In this document: positions 5,819-39,883 of the stretch, piece by piece
Layout of the letters: the number at the start of each line of letters is the position of its first letter
Position numbering within the stretch: the stretch's first letter is position 1
Assembly: GCF_016938855.1 (NCBI RefSeq)
Contig: NZ_JAFHAP010000003.1
Coordinates: 1 to 39,883 of the forward strand
Length of the DNA stretch: 39,883 nucleotides
Direction: 5' to 3'
DNA from: Polycladomyces zharkentensis
Lineage (GTDB): Bacteria; Bacillota; Bacilli; Thermoactinomycetales; JIR-001
The notes under the pieces: model-generated
The model's database searches: none
What the model was told of the DNA's origin: nothing
What the model saw: only the letters and a program-made list of their open reading frames with translations
Program-made: the position numbers and the translations under genes

Positions 5819-6060
5819 GACGTGTCCGGTCATTCATCAAACAGCCATGTTTCCCGGGCGAGCAAAAAGACCCAAGCCCGGCCAAGCGAAAACCGGCAAG
5901 GCGCAGGCATTCCAATCGCGGGCCATTTCCTTTTGAGCCAAGCGTATGTTACCCGCGTCCTGCGCCCCCGGTTAGCAACGACTAAGACCATCTTCCTTGC
6001 AAAGCGCGGGTGAAATGAGCCGGGATGTGGACCCGAATTCGGCATTCGCGGACTTTGTCG
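5819..6060 (-). repeat. Dispersed GTGTCYG element, copy D (reverse orientation)
   Basis: This fills most of the 340-bp gap between the regulator and ligA. It begins GTGTCCGGTCATT, continues through CCATGTTTCCCGGG and AAGCCCGG, and then has ACCCGCGTCCTGCGCC. Each block matches, in order, the reverse complement of the copy at 26377-26574. The last ~20 bases (GCGGACTTTGTCGAC) instead resemble the right end of the TGACAAAGT-type element seen at 25749 and 35437. No gene is seen in this gap. Confidence 0.55.
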
Positions 6061-14863: not shown

Positions 14864-15106
14864 CTAGAGCGTGTCTGATTACCGTCCAATTGCTTTCCCG
14901 GTTCGCTCCACCTGCGCCCTCAAGGAAGTTGGTTATGGCCGCTAAAGACCTGGAGCACAGGACGCGGGCAAAGTACGCTTCGCTTAGAGGAATTTGCCCA
15001 CGATTTTATTCCTGTGCTATCCGGGTCTTCGCTCGGTGGGGCTTGGTAAGTCGCTCACCCGGGAAAGCATTTGCTCCCACACGGTTGTACCCCGGACACG
15101 TTCCTA
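14864..15106. repeat. Dispersed GTGTCYG/CTAG element, copy B
   Basis: Left end CTAGAGCGTGTCTG (14864-14877), right end CGGACACGTTCCTA (15093-15106): imperfect terminal inverted repeats. The interior shares TTTCCCGGTTCGCTCCACCTG, GGACGCGGGCAAAG, ACGCTTCGCTTAGAGGAA and CGCTCACCCGGGAAA blocks with the copies at 26377 and 37038. It fills most of the gap between the lipoprotein and the efflux pump. No coding gene is seen within it. Confidence 0.65.
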
Positions 15107-26376: not shown

Positions 26377-26574
26377 GTCATGTCTGATCAGTACCGCGTG
26401 CGCCACTTTCCCGGTTCGCTCCACCTGCACCCCGCAAAGAAGAAATCGCTCCGAACCGGGCGCAGGACGCGGGCAAAGGACGCTTCGCTCAGATTCCGGT
26501 TCTCTGCTCCGTCGGGCTTGGGAGTTGCCGCGTCCCCGGGAAAACATGGCCCGAAATTACCGGACACGCTCTAG
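26377..26574. repeat. Dispersed GTGTCYG/CTAG element, copy A
   Basis: 198 bp. Left end GTCATGTCTGATCAG, right end CCGGACACGCTCTAG; the right end is the near-perfect inverse of the copy B left end (14864). It shares CACTTTCCCGGTTCGCTCCACC, GGACGCGGGCAAAGGACGCTTCGCT and CCCCGGGAAAACATGG with other copies. The terminal CTAG (26571-26574) contains the TAG stop codon of purH. No coding sequence is seen. Confidence 0.65.
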
Positions 26575-35537: not shown

Positions 35538-36836
35538 TTACTCAATCAAACCCAACCGGCGGAAAATGGTATCCACATGCTTCAAGTGATGACGGTAATC
35601 AAAACAATCCGCGATTTCTTCCGGCGACAACGTGCGCGTGATCAATTCGTCGCCTTCCACCAGCCCGCGGAAAGGACGTTGTTCCTCCCATGCCTGCATG
35701 GCCAGCTTTTGCACGCGATCATACGCTTCTTCCCGCTTCATGCCCTTGTCGATCAGTGAGAGCAGGACGCGTTGCGAATAAATCAATCCGTAGGTGGCTT
35801 CCATATTCCGTTTCATATTGTCCGGCAGAACCGTCAGTTCTTCCACGATTCCCGCAAACCGACGCAACATGTAGTTGAGCAGCGTGGTCGCATCCGGCAG
35901 AATGATGCGCTCTACGGACGAGTGGGAAATGTCCCGTTCATGCCAAAGCGGTACGTTTTCGTAGGCCGACAGCATATGGCCGCGGATGACGCGGGACAAG
36001 CCGGTGATATTTTCCGATCCGACCGGGTTACGCTTGTGCGGCATCGCCGAGGAGCCTTTTTGTCCTTTTTTGAATGCTTCCTCCACTTCGCGGATCTCGC
36101 TTTTCTGCAGACCCCGGATTTCCACCGCAAATTTCTCCAGCGACGTGGCGATCAAGGCCAGTGTCGCCATATATTCCGCATGACGGTCCCGCTGCAGGGT
36201 CTGCGTGGAGATCGGGGCCGGTTTCAACCCCAATTTGTCACAGACATACTGTTCCACAAACGGGTCGATATTGGCGTAGGTGCCGACGGCGCCGGAGATC
36301 TTGCCGACCCGCACCTCTTCCATCGCCCAAACGAAACGGTCGCGGTTGCGCTTCATTTCGGCATACCACAGCGCCATTTTCAGTCCGAATGTGGTGGGTT
36401 CCGCGTGTACCCCGTGCGTCCGTCCCATCATCACCGTTTCTTTGTGTTCCAGTGCTTTTCTTTTCAGGACATCGAGAAAATGGTCGATATCCTTCAGCAG
36501 GATGCGGTTGGCTTGTAACAGCAAATAGGACAGAGCCGTGTCCACCACATCGGTGGAGGTTAATCCATAGTGAACCCATTTGGATTCGGGTCCCAATGTT
36601 TCTGCGACCGCACGGGTGAACGCCACCACATCGTGACGGGTATCCTTTTCGATCTCCAAAATGCGACCGATGTCGATCCGTGCGTTTTGCCGGATTTTCT
36701 CCACATCCTCTTTGGGGATGACGCCCAGCTCCGCCCAGGCCTCACACGCCAAAATCTCCACTTCCAGCCATGCGCGGTATCGGTTTTCGTCGTTCCAGAT
36801 TTCCTTCATTTCCGGTCGTGTGTATCGTTCAATCAC
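35538..36836 (-). CDS. purB: Adenylosuccinate lyase PurB
   Basis: A 432-residue enzyme of the fumarase/aspartase superfamily. It cleaves SAICAR to AICAR + fumarate and adenylosuccinate to AMP + fumarate, so it serves both IMP and AMP synthesis. Catalytic His141 ([10 protein letters not shown]) and the serine loop with signature [11 protein letters not shown] (261-271) are intact, as is [13 protein letters not shown]. The GTG at 36836 lies six bases after AGAGAGGG. Upstream of it is an ~820-bp gap before purK. Confidence 0.97.
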
Positions 36837-37037
36837 AGCATTCCCTCTCTTTCGACAACGACTTGATGATTCGTTTTTGATCCGGTTGTGAAGCCATTCT
36901 CTCTCACTCATGCAACACTGAAGCCTATGTTTCGGTCGAGTGCGGAAGCTTTGATACGGAAACGGGGTTCGGGGTCTTCCCCCAAGGAAAGATCCATGTC
37001 CCTTTGGCTCGACCAGCCAAAGCCAGCGTCACCAAGA

Positions 37038-37354
37038 CGGTGTCTGACACTGTGTACATCACTTTCCCGGATCGCTCCACCGTGCATCAACAAACTGGAT
37101 AATCCCCCGTCGTACTGGAACGTCTCGGCCTTGCCTTCGCTTTCACGCCGCGGTTGAAGAACGCCAGCTCCCGAAAACGCTCTTGCAGAACACACCGAAA
37201 TCGAACCGAGGCACCGAACGCAGGCAAAGCACGTTTCGCTGAGAGGAAATTCCCCGCGATGGGGTTCCAGCATGGCGGTCCTTTGCTTGGCAGGGAATCA
37301 AACGTCGCTCACCCGGGAAAACGTTGCCGCCGGATCAAATGACCAGACACGCCT
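37038..37354. repeat. Dispersed GTGTCYG element, copy C
   Basis: Left end CGGTGTCTGACAC, right end ACCAGACACGCC. It shares CACTTTCCCGGATCGCTCCACC, CGCAGGCAAAGCACGTTTCGCTGAGAGGAAAT and CGCTCACCCGGGAAAACGTTG with copies A and B, and is longer (~317 bp). It lies next to the 23S rRNA fragment. The remaining part of this gap (36837-37037) holds a TTTGGCT/AGCCAAA hairpin (37003-37021) but no gene. Confidence 0.6.
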
Positions 37355-37389
37355 GATCCCCTTCTCTTTCTGCACAATCACCACAATCC

Positions 37390-37535
37390 AACTCTTATCG
37401 GACTGGTGGGTTGCCCCATTCGGGAATCCTCGGATCAACGCTCGCTTACAGCTCCCCGAGGCATATCGGTGTTCGCCCCGCCCTTCATCGGCTCCTGGCG
37501 CCAAGGCATCCACCGTGCGCCCTTACTAGCTTCTC
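37390..37535 (-). rRNA. Fragment of the 5' end of 23S rRNA
   Basis: On the minus strand the sequence AAGCTAGTAAGGGCGCACGG, then GTGGATGCCTTGGCGCCAGG, AGCCGATGAAGGGCGGGGCG, AACACCGATATGCCTCGGGG, AGCTGTAAGC and CCGAATGGGGCAACCCACC follows the start of bacterial 23S rRNA in exact order for about 130-145 nt. It then stops; the rest of 23S is absent. The preceding ~55 nt (37536-37590) may be the end of the 16S-23S spacer. It is a non-functional rRNA relic inside the purine operon. Confidence 0.85.
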
Positions 37536-37656
37536 CTCAGGACTCGCTACCTGTGAATGCTTGACTCTCCCGTATCCAAACATCCCGTTTTCCTTCATCG
37601 TAATAGCACCGGTTAGGCCTGCTAAGCGCGCGGAGCCGGATGCCGGTCGGTAAGGG

Positions 37657-38832
37657 TCACATGTTCTCGAACCCGTCCATGTCTTCCCAAATACCGAGCT
37701 GCTGAACCGTTCCCCACGCTTCCGCCAACGACTCGCCCAAAACGGTGACGTGACCCATCTTGCGTCCGGGTTTCGCCTCTTTTTTCCCGTACAGATGCAC
37801 TTTCACATTGTCGGGTAAGGTCGGTATCCGCTGTATCAAGGACTCCACATGCTCACCCAATATGTTGACCATCACGGCCGGGGTTAACAAACGCGTCGAT
37901 CCCAACGGCAGTCCGCAAATCGCCCGCAGAAACTGTTCAAACTGTGAGGTCGCGCAGGCATCGTACGTAAAATGTCCGGAGTTGTGCGGACGCGGAGCCA
38001 ACTCATTCACCAGCAATTGTCCGTCCTCCAAGAGAAACATTTCCACTGCGCAAAGTCCCGTTATCTCCAGTTTCTCCGCCACATCGCGGGCCAACCGTTC
38101 GGCACGGGCGGCGATACGTTCGTAGACCGGCGCCGGTGCCAGCGTCACATGCAAAATATGATGGCGGTGAATGTTTTCCACCACGGGGAATGTAGCGATC
38201 TGTCCATGGATATTGCGTGCCACCACCACCGACAATTCTTTGATAAACGGGACAAACTGTTCCAGAATGCAGGGTTCCCCCGGACGGGACAGCGCCTGCC
38301 AAGCGGGTTCCACGTCTTCCTCCCCGCGCAAAATCCGCTGGCCTTTCCCGTCGTATCCGCCCGTGACCGTTTTCAGCACACACGGATAGCCCAACTCTGC
38401 GGCGGCGCCACGCAATTGCCCCGCGTCGTGGACCACCCGGAACGCGGCGACGGGAATGCCGCAAGCATACAGCGTCTCTTTTTCCCGAACCCGATGCCGG
38501 GTGATTTCCAGCAGACGGCTGCCTTGCGGGACATAAGCTTTTTGCTCCAGCCGTTTGACCACTTCAGGGTTGATGTTTTCAAATTCATATGCAACCACGT
38601 CCGACCATTCGCCCAACTGCTCTGCGGCAAGAACATCATGGTATTCGGCGGCAATGTGGTGATCCGACACTTGGCTGCCGGGACAATCCGTCGAGGGATC
38701 CAGCGTGACAAAACGATATCCCAGCTTCCTTCCTTCGAGGATCACCATGCGCCCCAACTGACCGCCGCCCAAAATTCCCACAGTGCTTCCCGGCAACAAT
38801 ACGGTTGGCGGTTTGACTTGCATTTCGATCAT
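37657..38832 (-). CDS. purK: N5-CAIR synthetase PurK
   Basis: A 391-residue ATP-grasp enzyme: AIR + bicarbonate + ATP to N5-CAIR. Motifs: [22 protein letters not shown] at the N-terminus, [35 protein letters not shown], and [37 protein letters not shown]. Its ATG overlaps the purE stop by 4 bp (ATGA), with AGGTGA six bases upstream. The reading frame is intact even though the gap downstream is heavily rearranged. Confidence 0.97.
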
Positions 38833-39398: not shown

Positions 39399-39415
39399 AG
39401 GGCACACCGAAGGAA

Positions 39416-39496
39416 GATTTTTCCCATAGTCCGGAAATTTACGGTTTCCGGGTAGAGACACTCGAGCCATATCCTCGAGCATATATGAGAAAAATC
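39416..39496 (-). promoter_or_regulatory. Guanine-type purine riboswitch aptamer
   Basis: The minus strand carries the purine aptamer: P1 GATTTTTCTCATA (39496-39484) paired with TATGGGAAAAATC (39428-39416), 13 bp; junction ATAT; P2 with the GCTCGAGGATATGGCTCGAG core; and P3 CCGGAAACCGTAAATTTCCGG. The specificity position in GACTATGG is C, as in the xpt guanine aptamer (U in adenine types). Guanine or hypoxanthine should stabilise P1 and switch off purE transcription by attenuation. Confidence 0.95.
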
Positions 39497-39508
39497 ACAT
39501 GCAATATC

Positions 39509-39809: not shown

Positions 39810-39842
39810 CTGAAGCAAGTTTTTTTATTCCCCCATGCAAAT

Positions 39843-39876
39843 AAAAAACAGCTCACCATAGCGGTGAGCTGTTTTC
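39843..39876 (-). terminator. Bidirectional terminator at the right edge
   Basis: A perfect 13-bp stem (AAAACAGCTCACC at 39845-39857, GGTGAGCTGTTTT at 39863-39875) with a 5-nt loop and A/T flanks. It probably ends a gene that lies outside the window; the 39590-39840 stretch between it and the PurBoxes holds only the doubtful small ORF. Confidence 0.8.
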
Positions 39877-39883
39877 ATCCGAC

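Follow-up and report, generated by a model that had tools for sequence, protein, structure and literature searches.

A probable young rDNA scrap in the purine operon of Polycladomyces zharkentensis and two further rRNA insertions in the same genome

How does the beginning of a 23S rRNA gene come to lie between two genes of a purine operon? This question is raised by one contig of Polycladomyces zharkentensis (G000:C3, hereafter the window), which was analysed over its entire length of 39,883 bases and belongs to a 3.32 Mb draft assembly of 22 contigs. At its right end, the minus strand carries, in this order, a purine riboswitch, purE, purK and, after a 745-base spacer, purB, where the gene names are those we take to apply from the translations. 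The true start of purB is probably further in than position 36911. Given that the terminator-like hairpin at the contig end directly follows the 5S gene in two sister species, synteny indicates that an rrn operon is located just upstream of the purine operon. The distance from the rRNA piece to this rrn tail is approximately 2.3 kb (2304 bases).

An initial annotation, made from the letters of the DNA, placed a 5′ fragment of 23S rRNA of about 145 nt, perhaps with some spacer, on the minus strand inside the purine operon, and proposed that it had arisen by copying or recombination from an rRNA operon. We compared the region with two congeneric sisters of the window genome, namely G001, which is one contig of 3,197,230 bases and partly masked, and G002, which is a draft. 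BLAST against their rrn operons reveals that positions 37398-37579 are identical at 182 of 182 positions to two rrn copies in G001 (L031 3786-3967; L032/L038) and one in G002 (L034 16-197). This exact identity bears out the proposed copying and excludes a chance match (E 1.8e-92). The Rfam model RF02541 likewise recognizes 23S rRNA on the minus strand at 37381-37491, with 67.8 bits relative to a gathering score of 50, or 62.0 bits when the search is restricted to 36900-37670. The suspected spacer portion proved to be real, in that 43 nt from the end of the 16S-23S spacer precede 23S nt 1-139 (the gene begins at L031 3829 according to RF02541), whereas the length has to be corrected to 182 nt. 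Similarly, the covariance search that had been suggested for locating the breakpoint gives a significant match, but the edge is fixed by BLAST at 37398, and we rejected the Rfam extension past it to 37381 as spurious.

The breakpoint itself is sharp. Beyond 23S nt 139, only 7 of the next 24 bases of the window agree with G001, whereas G001 and G002 are the same over all 24. This end falls inside a hairpin of 23S rRNA that is presumably helix 9. We rejected the view that the window carries a divergent native helix 9 because a conserved block following the helix was found in six of the seven rRNA sequences compared and is missing in the scrap. The seventh sequence stops before the block, and the exact pattern used did not pick up 12 further loci. 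An imperfect inverted repeat at 37384-37405 (minus strand), with a 9-pair hairpin and a 4-nt loop, spans the breakpoint and is treated here as a chance occurrence.

Several known kinds of element can be compared with this piece, which we call a scrap. A functional 23S gene extends over roughly 2.9 kb and is followed by 5S, whereas the scrap comprises 182 nt and stops at 23S nt 139. On reading the sequence, the pre-23S processing stem lacks its 3′ strand, and therefore the normal RNase III site should not form. Inspection of the ends by eye identified neither the terminal inverted repeats nor the target-site duplication of a transposon or MITE. What is seen is a near-identical partial copy that lies outside an rrn operon and is missing at the orthologous sites of the sister species, as in an rRNA pseudogene fragment. 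The features of the locus, together with those of two related scraps described below, are collected in Table 1.

Table 1. Features at the right end of the window and further rRNA scraps of the same genome; positions are those of the window unless a contig is named.
Feature	Position	Strand	Evidence or remark
Contig end, terminator-like hairpin	39838..39883	-	directly follows 5S gene in G001 and G002
Purine riboswitch upstream of purE	39407..39508	-	RF00167, 88.5 bits
purK, upstream neighbour	37657..38832	-	95% and 94% identical in sisters
Stretch from purK stop to scrap	37580..37656	-	one short relative below E 0.001, rest weaker and at chance level
rRNA scrap, spacer end and 23S 5′ end, 182 nt	37398..37579	-	182/182 identity, G001 twice and G002 once
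16S-23S spacer, 43 nt, 5′ strand of pre-23S processing stem	37537..37579	-	L031 3786-3828; stem by eye
23S rRNA nt 1-139	37398..37536	-	BLAST to sister rrn
Stretch from scrap to dispersed repeat	37355..37397	-	no match reported over the stretch
MITE-like dispersed intergenic repeat copy	37041..37354	-	ends estimated by eye
purB, downstream neighbour	35538..36911	-	sister alignment starts 36888-36910
23S scrap, nt 1485-1719, 235 nt	G000:C14:96579-96813 (L111)	-	228/235 to G001, 230/235 to G002
16S scrap, nt 561-670, 110 nt	G000:C7:82084-82193 (L112)	-	110/110

In both sister species, purK and purB are also adjacent, and the spacers between them lack rRNA sequence. The gap between the aligned purK and purB blocks is 122 bases in each sister, compared to 763 and 736 in the window. 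The rRNA piece and a copy of a dispersed repeat, together with some further sequence, make up the extra length there. Because the sister spacers are too diverged, no empty site could be reconstructed from them for the window scrap. We dropped a possible deletion of the 5′ end of a G001 23S gene beside the purine operon, since the stretch concerned is N. Between purK and the scrap, positions 37616-37642 share a 27-nt motif (93%) with G000:C8:272805-272832, approximately 3 kb from retron genes.

When a complete rrn operon from G001 was used as the query against all three genomes, two further scraps came to light in the window genome, on contigs C14 and C7 (Table 1). The 12 matches in this genome comprise the three scraps, one match of 5S size on contig C11 that has counterparts in both sisters, five rrn stubs at contig ends (C7, C9 twice, C2 and C14), and three matches of 21-29 bases with E values of 0.09 or worse. 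The C14 scrap starts 56 nt past an rrn terminator and is 101 bases from a contig end formed by the rrn tail. It differs at 7 of 235 positions from G001 and at 5 from G002, a pattern that looks like this lineage's own variant of 23S. The C7 scrap is located between genes that are presumably tuf and rpsJ, and is antisense to both. Its own contig ends in an rrn stub, which is about 33 kb away and relative to which the scrap is inverted.

These two scraps are clean insertions. The corresponding empty sites are evident in G002, reading GAAAGGG/TTCGCGG for C14 and a short ATGCAGCCAAGTATGG stretch for C7. Read by eye against G002, the homology to the source at the left and right junctions amounts to 5 nt (AGGGT) and 2 nt for C14 and to 4 nt (GCCA) and 0 nt for C7, where three target bases may have been lost. 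The same comparison reveals no filler, no clear target-site duplication and no run of A at either insertion.

No internal rRNA scrap was found among the 9 matches in G001, which is partly masked, or the 14 in the draft G002; all of these belong to rrn operons, to stubs at contig edges or to the extra 5S, or span just 20-22 bases. In G001, one rRNA cluster is split (L038 483-6814), such that a 6.3-kb stretch with protein-coding ORFs separates 16S from the 23S-5S-tRNA portion; by eye, a terminator-like hairpin follows the 16S and a promoter-like sequence precedes the 23S. A search of 101 genomes with the purK-purB spacer, a query that carries only the 5′ end of 23S, matched 59 genomes, with at most five scored candidates per genome among the matches listed. 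Partial 23S matches in G034, G039, G022 and G005 were rejected as scraps given that they end exactly at contig ends, and, among the matches listed, several other partial ones start at contig base 1 or 2. Tandem 23S starts in G042 and G018 were also rejected, since N runs border both. In the titles and abstract openings that a literature search returned, no report of comparable rRNA scraps in bacteria appeared.

Could the scraps have been created during assembly, by rRNA reads wrongly built into contigs? The window genome is a draft in which no 16S or 23S gene is complete, its rrn matches include five contig-edge stubs alongside the scraps, the 5S-sized match and the three very short ones, and N runs adjoin the odd tandem starts of 23S in G018 and G042. 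However, the expected neighbours flank the scraps on both sides at all three places, and on this synteny we rejected assembly error as the main reading. The adjacency of purK and purB in the sisters makes a chimeric contig join unlikely, and the caveat attached to the initial annotation, namely that the piece might be the misjoined edge of a full rrn operon, does not accord with this synteny or with the presence of non-rRNA sequence on both sides. Moreover, the junction homologies of 0-5 nt would be far below any assembly k-mer, and no N is seen in the sequence around the three scraps. We therefore consider an assembly artefact very unlikely.

The dispersed repeat on the purB side of the scrap offers another potential explanation, wherein the scrap would be a cargo of this repeat or a hitch-hiker on it. 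A connection to the neighbouring mobile repeat had been suggested from the start. The estimated right end of the repeat (37354) is close to the scrap, yet 43 bases keep the two apart. Matches to a query spanning 36890-37397 number 38 in the window genome (including itself), 19 in G001 and 30 in G002, and the other matches in the window genome are 67-100% identical over 20-143 bases. Similar MITE-like copies also occur in the window at 14955-15071, 26460-26493 and 5934-5967, with ends like GTGTCYGGTCATT. Against a connection, the spacers at the C7 and C14 sites in both the window genome and G002 yield no match to 25 repeat copies at E 0.05, and, besides the copy in the window, no rRNA match of the window genome coincides with a listed repeat match there. 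In G001, however, the spacer at the orthologue of the C7 site contains a portion of this repeat (matched by 15 of 25 copies, best E 2e-6), so that a decayed copy at the C7 site is possible, which tempers the case against the link. The suggested connection is left unsupported by these findings, and we judge it to be highly improbable.

We also considered whether the scrap might serve a function, with the 23S 5′ end acting within the purine transcript as a decoy or as a regulatory leader for purB. The scrap is oriented as the operon is, and the fold of 37355-37660 is slightly above shuffled sequences in stability (z -1.96; 2 of 100 shuffles as good). Such stability is, however, expected of any rRNA piece. 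The scrap is absent from both sister species, and the other scraps are at unrelated places, one of them antisense to its neighbours. No promoter- or terminator-like site was found in 36800-37720. A functional role is thus extremely improbable, and the proposal of the initial annotation that the transcript might compete for ribosomal proteins or be processed by rRNA nucleases is unsupported.

A separate question is where the inserted segments come from and where they have been placed. We compared an 854-kb sample of the window genome (26%), which takes in the window and one stretch around a reverse transcriptase, with itself at thresholds of at least 90% identity, E of at most 1e-8 and at least 45 nt. 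This yielded 34 repeated pairs that by eye represent IS, MITE or other dispersed repeats, a tnpB piece, simple-looking sequence and a tRNA, and among these 34 pairs we recognized no piece of an ordinary gene copied elsewhere. An earlier run, on 454 kb and at 88% identity, produced 11 pairs, none of a different kind. When the rrn operon serves as the query, the settings of the 854-kb comparison recover the window scrap, which is the sole scrap inside the sample. Ribosomal-protein operons are strongly expressed, and a 3.5-kb stretch of this operon matched only itself when compared with its own genome, with no second copy of any piece.

Under equal per-base donor and acceptor rates, the chance that all three scraps derive from rRNA is about 6e-4, or 7e-3 without the starting scrap. 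Two of the three (C3 and C14) share the orientation of an rrn operon that ends less than 2.5 kb upstream of them, and for this arrangement the corresponding chance is about 3e-5, or 6e-3 without the starting scrap. Both tests were framed post hoc and assume four rrn copies, the number published for Polycladomyces abyssicola JIR-001, whose complete genome has four rRNA clusters and one extra 5S (PMC8210696). The low chance under a sequence-blind DNA process argues that the process favours rDNA or rRNA, a preference that an RNA template would explain as well. Three young rRNA insertions, with none found in the sisters and no ordinary-gene scrap recognized in the 26% sample, point to rRNA operons as a favoured source from which short insertions are drawn.

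The bias just described would also be expected of a process in which a fragment of rRNA or pre-rRNA is reverse transcribed and the cDNA is joined into the chromosome, much as processed pseudogenes form. All of the scraps come from rRNA, which is the most abundant RNA, and no ordinary-gene scrap was recognized in the 854-kb sample. In addition, the window genome carries a type XIII retron at G000:C8 ~266900-269700, whose reverse transcriptase is nearly full-length and is accompanied by its SWIM partner (L164, L169; PADLOC RT_XIII E 5.8e-176, SWIM_XIII 4.3e-117). G001 has no RVT_1 match, and G002 has only a partial one that by eye resembles a group II intron protein. However, this comparison rests on three genomes, and retron enzymes are known to copy their own RNA. 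The location of two scraps just downstream of an rrn operon is not predicted for a diffusible cDNA, and the window scrap includes 43 nt of spacer, which mature rRNA lacks. Neither a run of A nor a clear target duplication is seen by eye, and the ribosomal-protein operon likewise speaks against an RNA template, given that no piece of its 3.5-kb stretch has a second copy. On balance, we regard RNA-templated insertion as unlikely.

Instead, the window scrap is probably a young and functionless piece of rDNA that was copied into the purK-purB spacer by microhomology-mediated illegitimate recombination. Operons for rRNA are heavily transcribed places where replication forks stall and break. There, a few matching bases would allow a strand from an rrn operon to be copied or annealed into a spacer, frequently one close by. 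Either template switching where the fork has stalled or the annealing of a short single-stranded piece may be the route, and the inserted segment would have been neutral since. Illegitimate insertion of this kind characteristically depends on single strands, proceeds independently of RecA and is controlled by nucleases. An account at the level of DNA fits the bias towards rDNA, the proximity of two scraps to operons, the spacer portion and the junctions. Homologies of 5, 2, 4 and 0 nt at the junctions carry little weight as evidence.

The C7 scrap counts against this account of DNA-level copying, since it is far from an operon and inverted. Ku, which all three genomes have, does not help to tell the readings apart. 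The identity of the scrap is measured relative to sister rrn operons, as the 16S and 23S genes of the window genome itself are outside the assembly. Its own rDNA is the presumed source, with DNA presumably serving as the template and with forks or breaks near rrn operons as the putative occasion.

A single rRNA scrap would be an ordinary curiosity, whereas a set of three is moderately interesting. Such scraps can confuse counts of rRNA genes, annotation based on Rfam and genome assembly. A broader proposal holds that this lineage recurrently writes rRNA sequence into its chromosome, via either reverse transcription or rDNA template switching near rrn operons, and with a bias to rRNA and to near-rrn sites, which would make it a bacterial counterpart of rRNA pseudogene formation. 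We advance this generalization only tentatively and consider it doubtful.

The scraps can be compared with three known systems. Eukaryotic genomes contain rRNA and processed pseudogenes, including truncated copies of rRNA at ectopic sites, and the scraps resemble the rRNA pseudogenes in being truncated ectopic copies. They differ from processed pseudogenes in that the host is a bacterium, an RNA template is putative, and there is neither an A tail nor a clear target duplication. In the bacterium Acinetobacter baylyi, double illegitimate recombination of a kind reportedly termed short-patch is said to make use of microhomology, and the resulting substitutions are reportedly shorter than the insertions described here. 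The likeness, as far as the title of Harms et al. 2016, cited in PMC8116780, conveys it, is that short intragenomic segments are placed at other genomic sites. The present insertions are distinct in being 110-235 nt long, in coming from rRNA genes in all three cases and in being located beside rrn operons in two, and they are known from sequence alone. Finally, the model of microhomology-mediated break-induced replication or template switching, as presented in the title and abstract opening of PMC2621351, concerns human copy-number variants, whereas here the source is rDNA and the insertions are single and short; what the two have in common is templated change with small junction homology.
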